25,583 bases of DNA from a virus: positions 1 through 25,583 of the IMG/VR virus record IMGVR_UViG_3300040787_000007; one strand, given 5' to 3'. The notes beneath the pieces were generated by a model, which was given only the letters and a program-made list of their open reading frames with translations, was not told the origin of the DNA and did no database searches. Each line of letters starts with the position of its first letter. Position 1 is the stretch's first letter. The position numbers and the translations under genes were made by a program. Positions 52 through 20,382 of this stretch are shown here, in pieces.

Positions 52-993
52 TCAGTACACCTCGATGTCGTTGATCAGAGTTGCGGTGCACATCCGGCCG
101 ACCACGCTGTCGCGGGCGGCCTGCCAGTCGAAGGTGGCCTGCACGCCTTGCGGCCCGGAGATCTCGATCCGGGGGCGCGGCAGGTAGACGGCGTGCACGG
201 TGAAAGTGAAGCTCTCGCCCGAGGGCAGGACGTAGGCGAATTCCATCTCGCAGGGATCGCCATTGATGGCCTGCGTCACCAGCGTCTGGTCGGCGAAGCG
301 GACCTCGATCCGACCGGTCAGCGCGGCGATGGACGGGTCCGCCCCGTCGATGCGGCCGTCCGAGCGGATCGTCTCGATCCGGTCGAGGTTGTTGGCATAG
401 GTGATCTCGGCCGAGACCACGTTGCCGAGGGCGGTGCCATTCCGCGTGATCGCGCCGTTGAAGTGCCCGAAGCGCTTCAGTTCCAGCGCGGCGGGTGTTC
501 CGGCGCTGGTCGTCGTGCCCACCGTCTCGCCCTGCGCCACCAGCCGCGCCGTGGCGGTCAGCAGGCCCGAGCGCTGCATCTGCCAGGTGATCTGGTCGAG
601 CACGCAGCCCGAGTACATCGCATAGCGGGGCACCTCGGGCATGCCGGTCTCGATCGACATCGAGGGCAACGTCCAGGACCCCGACTGAAATTCGTGGCTG
701 AACGGGGCCTCCGCGCCCGTGGTGGTGGGTGGCCCGAACGCCGCCTTCAGCCAGAAGCCGAAGGCCTCGGCGTCGAGCGGCACCACGACATCGCCATCGG
801 CCGTCACCGCGTCCTTGATCGGCGCCAGCGGATCGCGCCCGTAGCCGAGAAGCTCCGAGTTCAGCAGCGGCTGCTCGGCCCCCAGCGAGGTGCTGGCGAA
901 GGGCATGCGGGTGAATCCGCTCGCGGGCGGCGTTCCATAGGTCGTCTCGAACGCAAGCGCCATCAGCGCCCGCGCCCCCTGGGCTCGTGCCAT
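52..993 (-). CDS. Phage tail tube protein
   Basis: This 313-aa protein resembles the phage tail tube family (Phage_tube_2 type). Its N-terminus reads ALMALAFETTYGTPP, followed by beta-rich segments such as GDVVVPLDAEAFGFWLKAAFG. Such proteins stack as hexameric rings to form the tube of a non-contractile tail. The start has a good ribosome binding site, GAGGAG placed 6 nt before the ATG. It lies 24 nt after the tail-terminator-like gene, and the next tail gene starts 2 nt after its stop. Family recognition comes from sequence pattern and gene order; no alignment was possible. Confidence 0.82.
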   Translation of the reverse strand: MARAQGARALMALAFETTYGTPPASGFTRMPFASTSLGAEQPLLNSELLGYGRDPLAPIKDAVTADGDVVVPLDAEAFGFWLKAAFGPPTTTGAEAPFSHEFQSGSWTLPSMSIETGMPEVPRYAMYSGCVLDQITWQMQRSGLLTATARLVAQGETVGTTTSAGTPAALELKRFGHFNGAITRNGTALGNVVSAEITYANNLDRIETIRSDGRIDGADPSIAALTGRIEVRFADQTLVTQAINGDPCEMEFAYVLPSGESFTFTVHAVYLPRPRIEISGPQGVQATFDWQAARDSVVGRMCTATLINDIEVY

Positions 994-14494: not shown

Positions 14495-15574
14495 TCAGGC
14501 AGGCAGTCTGTTCGACGTCTGAAGTTGCTCCAAGGCGATGGCGACCAGCCGACGATCGAAGATCTTCAACTTGCGCTGTCCAGCGGCTTCCCCACCGGCC
14601 CAGCCCTTAAGACCTTCCATCACTCCCTCAACAGTCGGTTCGATATCGTCGTGCTGCATCATCCAGTCGACAGTCGCCAGAAGTTCCATGCCGAGAGGCG
14701 ACTCGAACCCATCGATGGTGGCCGAAGCCCATTCCAGTACGCTTGAGAACTGCTTCCCTTCACCCGAGTTCAGATAGGCTTGCACTCGATCATATTTGGC
14801 GTCGTTGAACCAAATGAGATCCAAGGGATCGGCATCGGCTAGGCGTTTGTCGCACCGGAGATAACTGCCGTCGAGACTATCGAGCAGCTTCGTGAGGTTA
14901 TGCGAATAAGGTCCGTACTTGTTTGCTTGGAACCTGAACTTGAGCGCATCCGACCCTCCGAACCGCGTCACGCCGCGCTCGAGGAACCAACCCAGCTTCT
15001 GGACCTCAAGAATCGAGCACTCGATCCCAAGGAGGGAATACCGACGCACCATCTCAGCCATCAGTGCGCGTGCCGGGGTGAGCTTCTCAACACCGGTGCG
15101 CTTGGCGACATTCTGATACTTGGAAGTCGGCTCGTAGACGATGGCATTGACCCCATCAAGTTCCGCCAATGCCGCCTCGATAAGGGGACGCACGTCTTGC
15201 CAGTCGAGGCCACCATTACCACAACCAAGCGGGGGGATCGCAATCGAATGAATGTCCTTCTCGCGAATTACCCGGACCAGGTCCTTCAATCCATCTTCGA
15301 CCCATTCAATTTTGGTCTTCACCCGCCAGTGGGTCTTCGTCGGGAAGTTAATAATCCAACGCGGCCCGAAGAGTTCCTTGTTCTCTGTGACGAACATCTT
15401 GCCAATGCGTACTTCGTCAGCATCGCAAGCGCGCGAATAGGCTTCGAAGTTGCGCGGGAATTGTTCCTTGAACATCAAGGCAATTCCTTTGCCCATAATT
15501 CCGACCGTGTTCACGGTGTTCACGACCGCGTCAACGTCGGCTTCCAGTAGATTACCTTTCGCGTACGTTATCAT
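14495..15574 (-). CDS. darG: DarG macrodomain antitoxin (DNA ADP-ribosyl glycohydrolase)
   Basis: This 359-aa protein has an N-terminal macrodomain (about 1-155) with GNLLEADVDAVVNTVNTVG, then GIMGKGIALMFK and NFPTKTHWR. Lys80 in the FPTK motif sits at the position of the catalytic lysine known for DarG. The C-terminal domain (about 165-359) corresponds to the DarG part that binds and inhibits DarT. DarG removes ADP-ribose from thymidines in DNA and thereby reverses the toxin. It overlaps darT by 4 nt (ATGA), the usual toxin-first layout. Sampled GC is near 50-55%, lower than in the phage core genes, which suggests transfer. It appears full length and intact. Confidence 0.93.
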   Translation of the reverse strand: MITYAKGNLLEADVDAVVNTVNTVGIMGKGIALMFKEQFPRNFEAYSRACDADEVRIGKMFVTENKELFGPRWIINFPTKTHWRVKTKIEWVEDGLKDLVRVIREKDIHSIAIPPLGCGNGGLDWQDVRPLIEAALAELDGVNAIVYEPTSKYQNVAKRTGVEKLTPARALMAEMVRRYSLLGIECSILEVQKLGWFLERGVTRFGGSDALKFRFQANKYGPYSHNLTKLLDSLDGSYLRCDKRLADADPLDLIWFNDAKYDRVQAYLNSGEGKQFSSVLEWASATIDGFESPLGMELLATVDWMMQHDDIEPTVEGVMEGLKGWAGGEAAGQRKLKIFDRRLVAIALEQLQTSNRLPA

Positions 15575-16215
15575 CGGAAATACCAGCCCGGTTGCGCCAC
15601 GATCTTGAGTTCGAGCCCAACCTCCTCCCGTTGCCGTTCGAGTGTTCCTTTTTCGTTCTCACTCAGGCAGACTATGCCTGCAAGTTGCTCGACAGGCAAG
15701 TGCCTGTGTATAAGGGCTTCGGCTTGGTAGCGGTCCGTCTTCTCGGGGTCATCGACGTCACGCTTGAAGTCCCTTCGCTGCAGGATACCCCAGTCGATCT
15801 TGTCGAGGTCGTCGAGCGAGGTGAAGAACTGTGCGGTCTGGAGGTAAGCGTGACGATCCGAAAACACGGTTGCCACCCCACGATCAGCAAGCCCCCGAAG
15901 TGATGATACCATGATCACGATCTCCCTGTTCGGGAACTGGCGTATCCCACCGTAGCCAGTCTTGATGTTGTACATCATCATTGAAAAAGGCGTGAAGTAA
16001 AACGGGATATAATCCGACAACGTCCCACCAGGCGGTACAGGAACGTTTCGAGCTGTCCGGCGCTGGATCAATTCAAGATTCCCGATTCGAACAAAATTGG
16101 GATCCTGCACGTCAGAATTCTTACAGCGAAGCCCATTTGTAAGGATCCACGGCACATTGTCGATGTGCGTGATCCTGAAGATCAGAGCTTTTTCGGCAGT
16201 CAAGTTGTTGGCCAT
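15571..16215 (-). CDS. darT: DarT toxin, ssDNA thymidine ADP-ribosyltransferase
   Basis: This 214-aa protein has the DarT (DUF4433) pattern. An N-terminal NAD-binding segment runs from FRITHIDNVPWILTNGL to QRRTARNVPVPPGGTLSDYI, followed by PFYFTPFSMMMYN. The motif SDRHAY has His122, and the ARTT-loop end has YQAEALI with Glu166 as probable catalytic glutamate. DarT attaches ADP-ribose to thymidine in single-stranded DNA and blocks replication; DarTG systems are known to abort phage infection. It starts 34 nt after the DUF6362 stop with only a weak ribosome binding site (ACGAG). A poor promoter-like TTGAGG/TATCCA pair overlaps the upstream gene end. All expected key residues appear present. 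Confidence 0.93.
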   Translation of the reverse strand: MANNLTAEKALIFRITHIDNVPWILTNGLRCKNSDVQDPNFVRIGNLELIQRRTARNVPVPPGGTLSDYIPFYFTPFSMMMYNIKTGYGGIRQFPNREIVIMVSSLRGLADRGVATVFSDRHAYLQTAQFFTSLDDLDKIDWGILQRRDFKRDVDDPEKTDRYQAEALIHRHLPVEQLAGIVCLSENEKGTLERQREEVGLELKIVAQPGWYFR

Positions 16216-16249: not shown

Positions 16250-16687
16250 TCAAGATGCTGTATAGCGCTCAGCGCCCTCTACCACGAAGTTGATCGAGCG
16301 GTTCTGCGGCACCCGTCTCTCGTTCAATCGCCACACGATCACCGCGATGCCGTACTGCCAGCGCCGGTTCGCCGTTGCCCGACTGATCCCGAGTTCCCAG
16401 CAGATCGGCTTCCACGGCGTGCCATTCGCCCGAAGCCAGACGAGCCTAGCATCGTCCTTCTCCAGCCAGCGGAGCCAGAGCATCGCCTCCTCAGCCTGCG
16501 TGATCTGTCGCGGGCTGGGCCTTGGCCGCCGCATCTGCGGCTCCTGACCGACCTTGTCGGCGAAGCTGTGGAAATACTCTGGCCAGGCGTTGAAGAAGCC
16601 CTGCGGCATCACGCCCGGCAGCTGCCGCGTGACGTCCGCCGCAAGCTCCAGCCGGTCCTGCACCTGCGCTGTGGTCCACTCACCCAT
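16250..16687 (-). CDS. DUF6362 family HTH protein
   Basis: This 145-aa protein begins MGEWTTAQVQDRLELAADV and includes a run around residues 28-42, QGFFNAWPEYFHSFAD. A C-terminal helix-turn-helix (about 89-112) contains PWKPICWELGISRATANRRW. This matches DUF6362, a phage family with a DNA-binding look and unknown role, perhaps a late regulator. The start has GGGAGG 6 nt upstream and overlaps the 67-aa gene by 8 nt. It is the last core gene before the DarTG cargo. Confidence 0.78.
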   Translation of the reverse strand: MGEWTTAQVQDRLELAADVTRQLPGVMPQGFFNAWPEYFHSFADKVGQEPQMRRPRPSPRQITQAEEAMLWLRWLEKDDARLVWLRANGTPWKPICWELGISRATANRRWQYGIAVIVWRLNERRVPQNRSINFVVEGAERYTAS

Positions 16688-16883
16688 GGCGCGCCTCCCG
16701 TTCCCGCTTGCCGTAGAGCCGCTCGCCGAGTTGGCGCACCAGTTCGCGCTCGGGCCAGGTCAGGCGATGGTCGTCGATGGCGACGGCCAGCAGCCCCTGT
16801 TCCTTCCAGCCGTCGCGCTTGACCTCGTCGGGGTTGCGGCGGTGACCGCCATAGCCCTTGGGCGTGAACCGCATGCCGCTCAT
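16680..16883 (-). CDS. Small basic protein of unknown function
   Basis: This 67-aa protein is rich in Arg and Lys: it begins MSGMRFTPKGYGGHRRNPDE and ends with a helix containing ERELVRQLGERLYGKR. I recognise no family. It has a strong ribosome binding site (GGAGGTG, 4 nt before the ATG), overlaps the RuvC-like gene by 4 nt (ATGA) and the DUF6362 gene by 8 nt. The tight packing argues that it is a real gene. Confidence 0.68.
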   Translation of the reverse strand: MSGMRFTPKGYGGHRRNPDEVKRDGWKEQGLLAVAIDDHRLTWPERELVRQLGERLYGKREREARHG

Positions 16884-17398
16884 TGCACACCTCCCCGGGT
16901 CTCCAGCGCCCAGAGCAGGATCGCGATGGCGTCGGCCTCATTGTCGTCGGCGGGGCTGAAGCCGCGCGCCCGGGCGGCCGCCATCATGGCGTCCTTGTTC
17001 GCGTTGCCCTTGCCGGTGGCGTGGCGTTTGATGGTACCGACCGGGACGCCCTGATAGGCGACGCCCGCGGTCTCCGCCCATGCCGTCAGCGTGGCCAGCA
17101 GCCCGCCATAGACATGCGCCGCGTCGGTGCCGACGTGCCTGCGCACTTCCTCGAAGTGGATCGCGGTGAGGAGACCGGCGTCGTGAGCCAGCTGCTCGAG
17201 CCAGCCCCGGAACCGCAGGTAGCGCATGCCGCCGCCGTCATAGCGGCTGGGCCGGAAGGACACGGTGCCGCTGGTGATCAGACCGTCCGCAGCCTGCAAG
17301 GCCCAGCCGGTCGTGGTGCCGAGATCGAGGGCGAGAACGACCGGCACGCCGGGGCACGGGGCGCTCATGGGTGTCGGGGTCAGAGATGCGTGGGCCAT
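16880..17398 (-). CDS. RuvC-like Holliday junction resolvase
   Basis: This 172-aa protein has the RNase H/RuvC fold motifs. The first strand VLALDLGTTTGWAL has Asp25, the second acidic site is HFEEVRRH (Glu83/84), and the C-terminal DNEADAIAILLWA has Asp156. A Lys-rich loop ATGKGNANKDAM precedes the last motif, as in phage resolvases. It would cleave branched DNA during replication or before packaging. The start at 17398 has AAGGAG 6 nt upstream and is preferred. An upstream ATG at 17458 overlaps the primase stop (ATGA) and has GGGAG; it would add 20 residues without a recognisable domain and remains possible. Confidence 0.85.
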   Translation of the reverse strand: MAHASLTPTPMSAPCPGVPVVLALDLGTTTGWALQAADGLITSGTVSFRPSRYDGGGMRYLRFRGWLEQLAHDAGLLTAIHFEEVRRHVGTDAAHVYGGLLATLTAWAETAGVAYQGVPVGTIKRHATGKGNANKDAMMAAARARGFSPADDNEADAIAILLWALETRGGVQ

Positions 17399-17454
17399 GA
17401 TGGGCTCCTTTCCGGTTTGGTGCTCGATGGGATGAGGGGCGGGGCGTGCGGGGC

Positions 17455-20382
17455 TCATGGATCGAGCTCCCGCAGCCAGTCGGGGATGGGTGAACCTCGG
17501 GAACCTGCCGCCCGAGGTTCACAGGGAGGTTCACACGCACAAGGCTCTGAATTCACGTGGCTTTGTGAACCTCGCGAACCTTGTGAACCTTTTCCGGCAT
17601 CATCCTTCGCATGTGCGTGCGCGCGCGTGTGCGTAAGGGTTGGGAGAGGTTCACAAGGTTCACAAGGTTCACATTTGCCATTTCGATCAATGGCTTGATC
17701 GTGTGAACCTCGGTTTTGGAGGTTCACACTCGCGGCCCGAGGTTCACACGCATCAGACCCTCGTGCGCCGGATTGCGGACGCGACGGTTGCGTCGAGACC
17801 TTCAGCTGCCATTTGACCGCCCGCCGAAACGTGCCCGCCTGCACCAGCCTGAGGGTCAGATCGCCCACCCGGAACACGCGGTCCCGCATCTTCTTGATGG
17901 CGATCCCGAAGCTGGTCTTCTGCGCGCGGTCCGTGTGGCCGGTGATAGGCGGCGCCGGATCGCAGAACAGGGCGACGTCGAAGAGGTCGGCCGCGCCCAC
18001 CTCGGCGGTTCCGAACCGGTCCCACCAGGCGGCGATGAAGGCGCTCCAGCCCGCGCCCTCGCTGTCGGAGGCCTCCATCATCTCGTCGAGATTGCCGAGG
18101 AAGCCGGGAATGCCAGCGACCTCGAGCACGCCGCCCACGACATGCGCCCAATTCTCGAAGGAGCCGATGGTGCGCGCACCGCGCGGACGACCGGCGGCGA
18201 TCCACGCCTGGCAGAGCGTGAGACAGGCGGCGACCAGCCGGGGGCGGTTGGCACGCACCCATGTCATCAGATCGGGATGGCGGAAGCCGGTGCGCTGCCA
18301 GGGGCGCTCCTCGTGGGGATCGAGCCGGATGCGCAGGAGGCGGCGCGCCATCTCGTTGGAGAACTCGGGGTTGTTGCCTGTGGCGATCCAGAGGCAGCGG
18401 ATCGGCAGCCGCGCCATTTCCGATGCGCCGAGGATCCGGTCCTCCCAGAAGGGCGCCGTCAGGGCGGCCGCGACGGCGGAACTGTCAAGCTTGGCGCGCA
18501 GGTTGTCGATCAGCACGATGGCGGGGATCTGGTGCAGCTTGGCGGTGACGCGCTTGCGCCATTCGTCGTCGTCGCGCCCCTCGGTCATGACGCTCGCGCC
18601 CGAGCCGGTGAGGATGGTGGCGACGGCATCGACCATCAGCGTGGCGCCGGAGCCGGGGCTGGGCTTCTCGATCAGGTGCAGCGGCGTCGGCCCGTCGATC
18701 ATGCCCCGCAGGAAGCCGAGCAGCAGCAGCGCGATCACATGCGCCATCTCGGCGGGGCCGACGAAGGGGAAGTCGCCGAGCAGATCCTCGCAGAGCAGAT
18801 TGCGGGCTGCGGCAACTTCGGCGGCGGACGGCTTGGCCGGAATGGTCGGCACCACGAACCCGGGCGTCGGGGCGTAGAGAAGCCGCGCGTCGGGATGATA
18901 GCCCGGCGTGGTCAGCAGCGTGCCGCCCCGGCCAAAGACGGGTGTGTTGACGATGCCCACCAGCACGGGCAGCGCGGGGTCGGGCGTGGCCAGCACGGAT
19001 TTAACCACGGCGATCGGCGGCGGGGCCGCGACCAGCTCGCCCTTACCGTTCAGCTTCTTCCAGTGCGCCAGCCGCGCCAGCATGTGACGCAGCCGTTCCT
19101 CGGTAATCGCGGTGGCGACCGGACGGCCCTCGTCGTCGGGCACCACCCATGTCGGCTGCCCGGCGAAACGGAACACCCATGGCGTCCGGTTCGAGGCCAT
19201 CAGCAGGCTCCAGACCCGCTCGACCGAGCGGGCGAGATCGCCCTCGTCGGCGCGCAAGGTGGGGATGGCCTCGCCGCTGCCCTGATAGTTGACCGGCCGG
19301 TGCTGCCCGATCAGCAGTGTGGGTTCGGCCTCGGTGATGGCCTCCGCATCGGCGATCAGGGCGGCGACAGCCTCGGGCCCCTCGCGCAGCAGCAGGTCGT
19401 TGAAATCCTCGCCTTCCTCGGGCGGCAAGACGACGGCCACGTCGCGCCCTTGCGCGCGCAGGCGCCGGGCGGCGGCCTCGGCGGCCCGCAGACCGGCCCC
19501 GGAGGTGTCGTTGTCGGCCAGGATCAGCACGCGCCGGACGCCAGGCGGCAGATCGACCTGTTCGAGGCCCGATGTCGACAACGTCGCCCAGACCGGCAGA
19601 TCGGGGCATGCGGTCATCACCGCGAGGCCGGTCTCGATGCCTTCGGATAGAGCCAACCGATCGCCGTTGCCGAGCGCGGCCAGACGCACGGCGCCACCCG
19701 CCACTCGGCCCAGCATCTTCTTTGCCTTGTCGAGCGGCGCCTTGGTGACCGCCACCTCATCGGTGGCGAGGTAGCTGCGGTGCAGGCCGATGACCGCGCC
19801 ATCGCGGTCGCGGACCTGTCCAAGCATGGCCGGATAGCCGGTCTTCGTCTCCCAATGGGTCAGGTCAGGGTGAAACAGCAGATCTGCGGCCTCGGGCACC
19901 ATCAGGCCGCGTCCGGTCAGATACCGCGCGACCGGGGAGCCCGTGATCGGCTGCGCACCCGTCATGATGTGCGCGATCTCGAGCGCGGGATCGCGCTTCA
20001 ATGGAGGTGGCGTCGGTGGCGCGCGACGTTCCGGCGCGCCTGGCGAGATGCCCGCGAGTTCTGCTGCCTCGACGATCAGGGCCCGGCCGTCGAGCCCGGT
20101 CGCTTCCTCGATGGCGCTGATCGGACCGCCGCCCTGATTGCCGTCGAAGTCGATCCAGTCGCCAGCATGCGCGCCGCGCAGGGTGATGACACAGGAGCCG
20201 GTATTGCGCGGCGCGTCGCCCCGGATGTTGGCGAGCCGCCACTCGTCGCCCGACCTGCGCCCGCGCGGAAACAGGCGTGGCACCCATATCTCGGCGGTCT
20301 CGCGCAGGCGCGCCACCACCAGATCGAGATCGTAGCGCAGGGGCTCGCCGCCGAGCGGTTTGGCGTCGTTGAGGTCAAGCAA
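17455..20382 (-). CDS. Toprim primase fused to P-loop-like domain
   Basis: This 975-aa protein probably primes and drives phage replication. The N-terminal region (1-120) resembles the DUF7146-type primase start, with GDAPRNTGSCVITLRG. The toprim domain (about 240-335) has Glu247 in SEGIE and Asp290/Asp292 in LADNDTSG. The C-terminal ATPase-like domain (about 540-700) has Walker B AIVLIDNL at 621-628 and sensor-like WIATGNN, but its Walker A-like PGSGAT (576-581) has Ala580 where Lys is expected. Residues about 870-960 are a low-complexity tail with CEP and GSQ repeats encoded by a DNA repeat array. The start is TTG at 20382, overlapping the helicase stop by 8 nt. No ATG exists before the conserved N-terminal region. 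Confidence 0.88.
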   Translation of the reverse strand: MLDLNDAKPLGGEPLRYDLDLVVARLRETAEIWVPRLFPRGRRSGDEWRLANIRGDAPRNTGSCVITLRGAHAGDWIDFDGNQGGGPISAIEEATGLDGRALIVEAAELAGISPGAPERRAPPTPPPLKRDPALEIAHIMTGAQPITGSPVARYLTGRGLMVPEAADLLFHPDLTHWETKTGYPAMLGQVRDRDGAVIGLHRSYLATDEVAVTKAPLDKAKKMLGRVAGGAVRLAALGNGDRLALSEGIETGLAVMTACPDLPVWATLSTSGLEQVDLPPGVRRVLILADNDTSGAGLRAAEAAARRLRAQGRDVAVVLPPEEGEDFNDLLLREGPEAVAALIADAEAITEAEPTLLIGQHRPVNYQGSGEAIPTLRADEGDLARSVERVWSLLMASNRTPWVFRFAGQPTWVVPDDEGRPVATAITEERLRHMLARLAHWKKLNGKGELVAAPPPIAVVKSVLATPDPALPVLVGIVNTPVFGRGGTLLTTPGYHPDARLLYAPTPGFVVPTIPAKPSAAEVAAARNLLCEDLLGDFPFVGPAEMAHVIALLLLGFLRGMIDGPTPLHLIEKPSPGSGATLMVDAVATILTGSGASVMTEGRDDDEWRKRVTAKLHQIPAIVLIDNLRAKLDSSAVAAALTAPFWEDRILGASEMARLPIRCLWIATGNNPEFSNEMARRLLRIRLDPHEERPWQRTGFRHPDLMTWVRANRPRLVAACLTLCQAWIAAGRPRGARTIGSFENWAHVVGGVLEVAGIPGFLGNLDEMMEASDSEGAGWSAFIAAWWDRFGTAEVGAADLFDVALFCDPAPPITGHTDRAQKTSFGIAIKKMRDRVFRVGDLTLRLVQAGTFRRAVKWQLKVSTQPSRPQSGARGSDACEPRAASVNLQNRGSHDQAIDRNGKCEPCEPCEPLPTLTHTRAHAHAKDDAGKGSQGSRGSQSHVNSEPCACEPPCEPRAAGSRGSPIPDWLRELDP
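17489..17748. repeat. Iteron-like array of a 9-bp repeat, candidate origin
   Basis: Ten exact copies of AGGTTCACA or its complement lie at 17515-17523, 17527-17535, 17564-17572, 17582-17590, 17647-17655, 17656-17664, 17665-17673, 17702-17710, 17720-17728 and 17740-17748. Near copies are at 17489-17497, 17498-17506 and 17573-17581. Several are head-to-tail: three exact units in tandem at 17647-17673 and three at 17564-17590. Copies at 17701-17710 and 17720-17729 form a perfect 10-bp inverted repeat with a 9-nt loop. All are inside the 3' end of the primase gene. Repeats inside a replication gene recall the lambda origin within gene O; the origin role is inferred. Confidence 0.85.
17609..17635. 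other. Alternating purine-pyrimidine tract
   Basis: Twenty-seven consecutive bases alternate purine and pyrimidine without a break, mostly GC and GT steps. Such tracts can adopt Z-DNA under negative supercoiling. It lies between the two three-unit blocks of the 9-bp repeat array, which makes a structural role in the array plausible. In the primase it encodes a THTRAHAHAK-like stretch. Confidence 0.7.

Follow-up and report, generated by a model that had tools for sequence, protein, structure and literature searches.

A prophage family that appears to carry its replication origin inside the gene for its own primase-helicase

In Staphylococcus aureus pathogenicity islands (SaPIs), the C-terminal domain of the Rep protein recognizes an iteron origin directly downstream of its gene, and the D5-type helicase Cch2 of the staphylococcal cassette chromosome mec (SCCmec) binds short repeats just downstream of its own gene (PMC7581432). 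The origins of phage-inducible chromosomal islands (PICIs) consist of two iteron sets that flank AT-rich DNA (PMC6092414), and in phage lambda the iterons reportedly lie inside gene O, which encodes their binding protein (PMC6022878). Both intragenic iterons and primase-helicases that read adjacent iterons are thus already known. Here, we describe a repeat array in the IMG/VR virus record IMGVR_UViG_3300040787_000007, the whole of which (25,583 bp) was analyzed and is called the window below. The array sits entirely in coding sequence, within the last 110 codons of a primase-helicase gene, and the prophage family to which the window belongs appears to carry its replication start inside this gene. 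We conclude that the array is an iteron origin of the SaPI/PICI pri-rep-ori type that lies within a gene and is read by that gene's own product, with origin activity being the part that we infer; it is very probable that the array is the phage replication origin and is read by a winged helix of the initiator encoded there.

The array is built from a 9-bp word, AGGTTCACA/TGTGAACCT, found in 10 exact and 3 near copies, in both orientations, over 260 bp. Our recount agreed with the initial annotation of the window, which had listed these 13 copies on both strands together with two triplets and an inverted repeat at 17701 to 17729, except that the middle unit of the second triplet proved degenerate. 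Copies with at most one mismatch numbered 11 in the window versus 2.0 expected, the largest count in 100 shuffles being 5. No exact copy was found outside the array across the whole window record, and none beyond the array in a 49-kb relative that shares the window word. The repeats are therefore clustered at one site of the replicon, in direct and inverted orientation, as iteron origins are. DnaA boxes and CcrM (GANTC) sites were sought in the array, and none were found.

Codon bias and amino acid content are not sufficient to explain the repeats, since the commonest 9-mer reached at most 7 copies in 4,000 synonymous re-drawings of the tail, compared with the 10 observed. In addition, the repeat sites favor codons that are rare elsewhere in the gene: cysteine is encoded by TGT at 7 of 7 positions in the tail versus 2 of 7 in the gene core, and serine by TCA at 5 of 12 versus 0 of 30. 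By these sequence measures, selection acts on the DNA of the array, which bears out the earlier suggestion that its repetition goes beyond codon bias.

Scans of viral contigs and GTDB genomes yielded about 170 related loci, mostly alphaproteobacterial prophages and viral contigs from Rhodobacterales, Roseomonas-like bacteria, Rhizobiales, and Magnetospirillum-like genomes. Arrays were located in them locus by locus through a de novo search for the commonest repeat, and an array was found at the equivalent place in every examined locus with a full primase 3′ end; arrays so placed occur in more than 160 of these prophages and contigs. The family layout, read on the coding strand with one arrow per site, is near constant: > > <, a 28-bp spacer, >>>, a centre, <<<, a 28-bp spacer, and > > < (<). 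Measured outward from a triplet, the next site lies 37 bp away on the left in 47 of about 75 loci and on the right in 46 of about 65, and this equal offset brings the array close to a dyad. The left spacer has a mean AT content of 53% versus 33% in the gene, and is the higher of the two in 75 of 75 loci; the right spacer averages 52.5%. The centre carries a perfect alternating purine-pyrimidine tract with a family median of 27.5 bp; in the 2.2 kb that precede it within each gene, the corresponding value is 10 bp. The coding frame of the window family continues across the array and closes in an ATGA overlap with the RuvC-like gene that follows, which leaves no intergenic space for an origin.

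Two explanations that require no DNA-binding protein can be weighed against this layout. It is most improbable that selection favors the repeats for their peptide (CEPCEPCEP...GSQGSQGSQ) or that they represent a recombinogenic minisatellite. Nearly all loci have them in frame, and a terminal PDWLRELDP is conserved, as a peptide role would have it; yet forward sites encode CEP and reverse sites GSQ, and both change together, while the synonymous shuffles never attained the observed copy number. Furthermore, the open reading frame stops within the array in five loci (L040, L041, L209, L285, and L269) and the site layout carries on beyond the stop, indicating that DNA, not peptide, is kept. Dispersed inverted sites with fixed spacing are not expected from slippage, and the words follow the recognition helix and wing of the same protein, as described below. 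A peptide-level or slippage origin of the repeats was rejected on the basis of the synonymous shuffles and the layout past the stop. We also find it hardly credible that the triplets serve as an mRNA hairpin for stability or for translational coupling to ruvC. The inverted triplets do give a 32-nt arm that is 88% complementary, but the outer sites occur in both orientations and are equally conserved, a stem needs pairing alone and not one identical word at a dozen sites, and a hairpin would not covary with a winged-helix domain.

The word itself differs widely among relatives. About 30 words occur across the family, including TGTGAACCT, GGGGAACCT, TGTGAGCCT, CGTGAGGGT, GGGGAACAT, TGGGGACCT, GGGGAATGT, GGGGAACGT, GGTGGACGT, TGGGGGTCT, GGGGGGAGT, and others, and each is altered in unison over all sites of a locus. 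In 83 dereplicated loci, we counted 34 word states, for which a helicase-core tree requires a minimum of 54 changes. A search of relatives for the same 9-mer, which the initial annotation had recommended as a check, was misleading because many relatives have the array with a different 9-mer; it returned mixed contigs and missed most of the family. Distant relatives (L289, L292, L293, and L294) carry their array in non-coding DNA immediately beyond the 3′ end of the gene, and these arrays are probable origins as well. In the Azospirillum one (L294), triplets of AAACCCACT in inverted orientation enclose an AT-rich stretch.

Some loci are worth recording separately. In the arrays of L036, L037, L041, and L078, two words adjoin one another (TGTGAGCC and TGTGAACC), which may reflect an ongoing change of specificity. 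Certain bacterial genomes harbor two prophages of the family, with differing words in L235/L239, L221/L234, and L251/L252 and with the same word in L193/L194 and L216/L248; as raw counts only (3 different-word versus 2 same-word), these genomes bear on the idea of incompatibility discussed below.

To relate the word to the protein, we ran an unbiased mutual-information scan of 463 protein columns (residues 405 to 867) against each word base. The top columns for bases 1, 3, 5, 6, 7, and 8 were residues 854, 853, 855, 819, 823, and 827, respectively, whereas bases 2, 4, and 9 were uninformative because they are nearly invariant. Several of the residue-base relations are nearly deterministic. In the contingency tables, histidine at residue 853 goes with G at base 3 (47/48) and R/Q/E/S with T (35/35), alanine at 855 goes with A at base 5 (63/63), R/K at 819 with A at base 6 (57/58) and other residues with G (25/25), threonine at 823 with C at base 7 (56/58), and M/I at 827 with C at base 8 (31/31). 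The same relations held in independent sister pairs taken on a tree built without the winged-helix domain: for base 3, 12.6 pairs were concordant and 0 discordant of 13 (p=2.4e-4), with corresponding values of 8.9/0 of 9 for base 6, 11/0 of 12 for base 7, and 9.9/0 of 10 for base 8. Control columns from the protein core were not significant in the same pair test.

We also made predictions for an out-of-sample set of 33 loci with an unseen reader region, obtained from three further scans, and froze them before the words were extracted. They were right for base 3 in 32 of 32 calls, base 5 in 32 of 33, base 6 in 31 of 32, base 7 in 27 of 33, base 8 in 25 of 32, and base 1 in 23 of 31, and the word of L313 (GGGGAGTGT), which was missing from the training set, was predicted exactly. 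The word has changed dozens of times in step with the predicted reader, so that a protein-to-DNA code is visible in the sequences.

The residues concerned fall in a predicted reading unit. The TOPRIM domain of the protein belongs to PF13362 (Pfam), and its C-terminal half resembles primase/helicase phage families. An AlphaFold2 model (76 relatives, mean pLDDT [predicted local distance difference test] 84) ends in a unit of three helices (774-790, 797-805, and 818-830) and a hairpin, with strands at 836-839, 842-852, and 855-862. In this model, residues 819, 823, and 827 are spaced one turn apart along the third helix, and residues 852 to 855 lie at the hairpin tip, which is the predicted recognition-helix and wing arrangement of a winged-helix domain. 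The assignment is a prediction from modeled secondary structure combined with covariation. Foldseek against the PDB retrieved D5-type primase-helicases, namely, those of NrS-1, monkeypox E5/vaccinia D5, the African swine fever PrimPol, and SaPI5 PriRep1, with a probability of 1.00 to SaPI5 PriRep1 (7ola/7pds), NrS-1, and D5/E5.

Natural exchanges between close relatives agree with this picture. Four sisters of the window (L021, L022, L024, and L071) are 92 to 100% identical to it in protein, by segment, up to residue ~830, but only 46 to 54% identical over residues 831 to 865, and their word is GGGGAACCT. At the DNA level, L022, L024, and L071 share 88 to 100% identity with the window until about 600 bp before the stop and 86 to 98% over the first 600 bp after it, while identity falls to 41 to 66% at −400 to −200. 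In sequence comparison, the different-word sisters therefore differ from the window mainly in the predicted winged-helix domain and the array. A second swap was observed between L283 (and L281, L282, and L223) and L279/L222, in which the helicase end and the first two winged-helix helices are identical, and the wing reads GTYQGV versus GVKHQA with the words GGTGGACGT versus GGGGAACGT.

The initial annotation had suggested that the primase itself or a small operon protein such as DUF6362 or DUF3489 could be the binder. Covariation, cassette swap, and frozen predictions together strongly favor the primase as the likely reader. DUF6362 is not linked to the word in close sisters, its identity to the window being 76 to 92% in different-word and 76 to 78% in same-word sisters, and it was found in 99 of 163 loci, some of them truncated. 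The RuvC-like protein behaves similarly (93.8 to 95.3% versus 93.2 to 95.3%). RuvC-like, DUF6362, Dda-like helicase, Cas4-like, and DUF6511 proteins were all rejected as readers, as their similarity to the window is independent of the word in close sisters. For these reasons, we consider it very unlikely that a regulator uses the array as its operator or that RuvC-like, DUF6362, DUF6511, the helicase, or a distant repressor targets it, even though the array adjoins these neighboring genes. The array also lies at the 3′ end of a long gene, away from a promoter position, and exact words outside arrays are near chance (24 versus 15.6 expected, with several of the 24 representing extensions of arrays). 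No second word cluster was found in the window record or the 49-kb relative, and a regulator/operator role was rejected.

In the mechanism that we propose, the C-terminal winged helix of the TOPRIM-D5 protein would recognize the word TGTGAACCT, with R819, T823, and I827 of the recognition helix contacting bases 6 to 8 and the wing tip (852 to 855) contacting bases 1 to 5. Protein copies would occupy the two mirrored site sets, on which two opposed helicase rings may assemble and melt the AT-richer spacers, the central alternating tract, or both; the opened DNA would be primed for bidirectional replication. Word and reader would change together, sometimes by recombinational exchange of the whole cassette of winged helix and array. 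The idea that the array is a candidate origin, already present in the initial annotation, is strongly supported by its presence across the family, its layout, and the covariation, and firing from it is the inferred step. The mean coding-strand GC skew reverses its sign across the array and is higher on the 3′ side in 44 of 51 loci (p=2e-8), although the genes neighboring the array are co-oriented in the window; this weakly fits bidirectional replication from the array.

On the other hand, covariation identifies the reader of the array and not its purpose, and plasmid iteron arrays can act in copy control. The array could therefore be read by the primase winged helix as a partition/pairing or copy-control (handcuffing) site while replication starts elsewhere, which we regard as unlikely. 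The reader is fused to a primase and a helicase, the GC skew flips at the array, and neither the window record nor the 49-kb relative contains a second array. Two iteron sets, AT-rich spacers, and mirror symmetry also fit the anatomy of PICI/SaPI origins (PMC6092414).

Several observations weigh against the array being a self-read origin of this kind. Whole-model Foldseek superpositions were loose (TM [template modeling] score of 0.3 to 0.5), and no chain matched in a PDB sequence search with a profile of the protein, so that the family is assigned by fold and the winged helix is a prediction. No array was seen in the 6.4 to 6.5 kb examined of the large related phages RpAliso, RcXuper, Caulobacter phage RBC11, and phiAsp2. 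The code made 170 correct calls of 193 versus 160 for the nearest core neighbor, a modest gain overall, because most new loci have a same-word neighbor; where the neighbor had a differing base, the code was right in just 19 of 31 calls. Its errors cluster in the Roseomonas-type clade and at bases 1 and 8, for which the residue-base table is thus incomplete. Lastly, the change in GC skew is slight and might stem from differences in gene content.

Coordinates of the array, the predicted reader, and associated features (window positions unless another record is named; site arrows refer to the coding strand)
Feature	Position	Strand	Remark
Primase-helicase gene, 975 aa	17455..20382	-	TOPRIM primase and D5-like helicase
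Protein domains	residues 135-234; 243-337; about 400-790; 774-862; 866-975		DUF7146; TOPRIM; D5-like helicase; winged helix (predicted); repeat-coding tail
Predicted reader, winged-helix domain, residues 774-862	17797..18063	-	AlphaFold2 secondary structure and covariation with the word
Recognition helix 818-830 (predicted)	17893..17931	-	R819, T823, I827 track word bases 6, 7, 8
Wing tip F852-R853-R854-A855 (predicted)	17818..17829	-	Tracks word bases 1, 3, 5
RuvC-like gene	16880..17458	-	ATG overlaps primase stop (ATGA)
Whole 13-site array	17489..17748		Word TGTGAACCT on coding strand
Exact word copies (starts)	17515, 17527, 17564(-), 17582(-), 17647, 17656, 17665, 17702(-), 17720, 17740		
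Near copies	17489-17497; 17498-17506; 17573-17581		1, 2, and 2 mismatches
Outer left sites	17740-17748 (>), 17720-17728 (>), 17702-17710 (<)		Found in most relatives
Left 28-bp AT-richer spacer	17674..17701		57% AT in window; candidate melting site
Triplet >>> of exact 9-bp units	17647..17673		
Perfect alternating purine-pyrimidine tract, 28 bp	17608..17635		Between mirrored triplets
Triplet <<<	17564..17590		Middle unit degenerate in window
Right 28-bp AT-richer spacer	17536..17563		Mirrors left one; 37-bp site-to-site offset both sides
Outer right sites	17527-17535 (>), 17515-17523 (>), 17498-17506 (<), 17489-17497 (<)		2 and 1 mismatches in last two
Non-coding array of L289	4036-4371		Archaeal virus; own repeats, downstream of distant primase-helicase
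Non-coding array of L292	4029-4360		Streptomyces plasmid; own repeats, downstream of distant primase-helicase
Non-coding array of L293	4115-4277		Methylobacterium plasmid; own repeats, downstream of distant primase-helicase
Non-coding array of L294	3869-3989		Azospirillum plasmid; downstream of distant primase-helicase

Two other features of the record were noted. A DarT ADP-ribosyltransferase gene (PF14487) and a macro-domain DarG-like partner, at 14495 to 16215 on the minus strand, adjoin the replication module in a stretch of low GC content (about 55%); the pair was matched in just 1 of about 170 related loci (L214) and therefore looks like recently acquired cargo. The DUF6362 gene contains an imperfect 30-bp tandem repeat of 2.3 copies (16434 to 16500).

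As the word is rewritten at all sites while the layout stays fixed and winged-helix residues change in step, origin specificity may be under diversifying selection, an idea that we put forward only tentatively. If it is true, diversification would be driven by selection against origins held in common with co-resident prophages, satellites, or decoys, which would titrate or hijack the initiator, and the family would offer a large repertoire of readable, mutually incompatible origin specificities, among them two-word loci in mid-change. Plasmid and phage incompatibility has long posed the question of how an initiator and a dozen sites change specificity jointly; with about 30 matched pairs of reader and word on one conserved architecture, near-deterministic residue-to-base rules, and a swap between near-identical phages, this becomes directly testable. 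The array could serve as an origin marker for many uncharacterized alphaproteobacterial prophages and predicts which of them should be replication incompatible. It would also be a plain example of coding sequence written over an origin, with a comparable array still non-coding in distant relatives, and the peptide repeats at primase ends (CEPCEPCEP, GEPGEPGEP, and WGPWGPGGP) would be shadows of DNA sites, not a protein feature.

A search of the literature outside subscription papers found neither the array nor a winged-helix word code described for this phage group, in line with the initial annotation, which knew of no equivalent among primase-helicase phages. As far as the searched literature shows, the new elements are intragenic iterons with apparent self-reading in a TOPRIM-D5 phage family, a fixed near-dyad layout with an alternating tract in coding DNA, and the turnover of about 30 words with its accompanying residue-to-base table.

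Among the known systems, ori-lambda shares with the window the position of iterons within the gene of their binder, here a predicted one. Lambda O is not known as a helicase or a primase, whereas the window reader is a self-sufficient primase-helicase with a predicted C-terminal winged helix and sites in its 3′ tail, and no lambda O family was among its Pfam and PHROG matches, so homology is not indicated. The initial comparison with lambda thus stands for an origin inside an initiator gene, but primase-helicases of SaPIs and PICIs with downstream iterons are mechanistically nearer. The alpha protein of phage P4 is a primase-helicase whose C-terminal domain binds short iterons resembling GGTGAACA, and the P4 iterons (ori and crr) lie outside the alpha gene. 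Unlike the window array, the SCCmec Cch2 repeats are three iterons in non-coding DNA of a Gram-positive chromosomal cassette.

The closest match is with the SaPI/PICI pri-rep-ori modules (SaPI5 PriRep1, SaPIbov1 Rep, and those of E. coli PICIs). Like them, the window has a D5/Primase_Cterm-type (superfamily 3-like) helicase fused to a primase, with a C-terminal DNA-binding domain, predicted in this case, that would read iterons at the 3′ end of the gene. Both have two iteron sets and AT-rich DNA, which in the window takes the form of two AT-richer spacers around a GC-rich alternating centre. The SaPI/PICI origin is non-coding and downstream, as in the distant relatives L289, L292, L293, and L294, while that of the window is coding; the SaPI/PICI primase is of the archaeo-eukaryotic type, while that of the window is TOPRIM. 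In contrast to these satellites, the window element is a temperate phage with terminase and portal genes, and its family adds a central alternating tract and an extensive turnover of words with a readable residue-base code.

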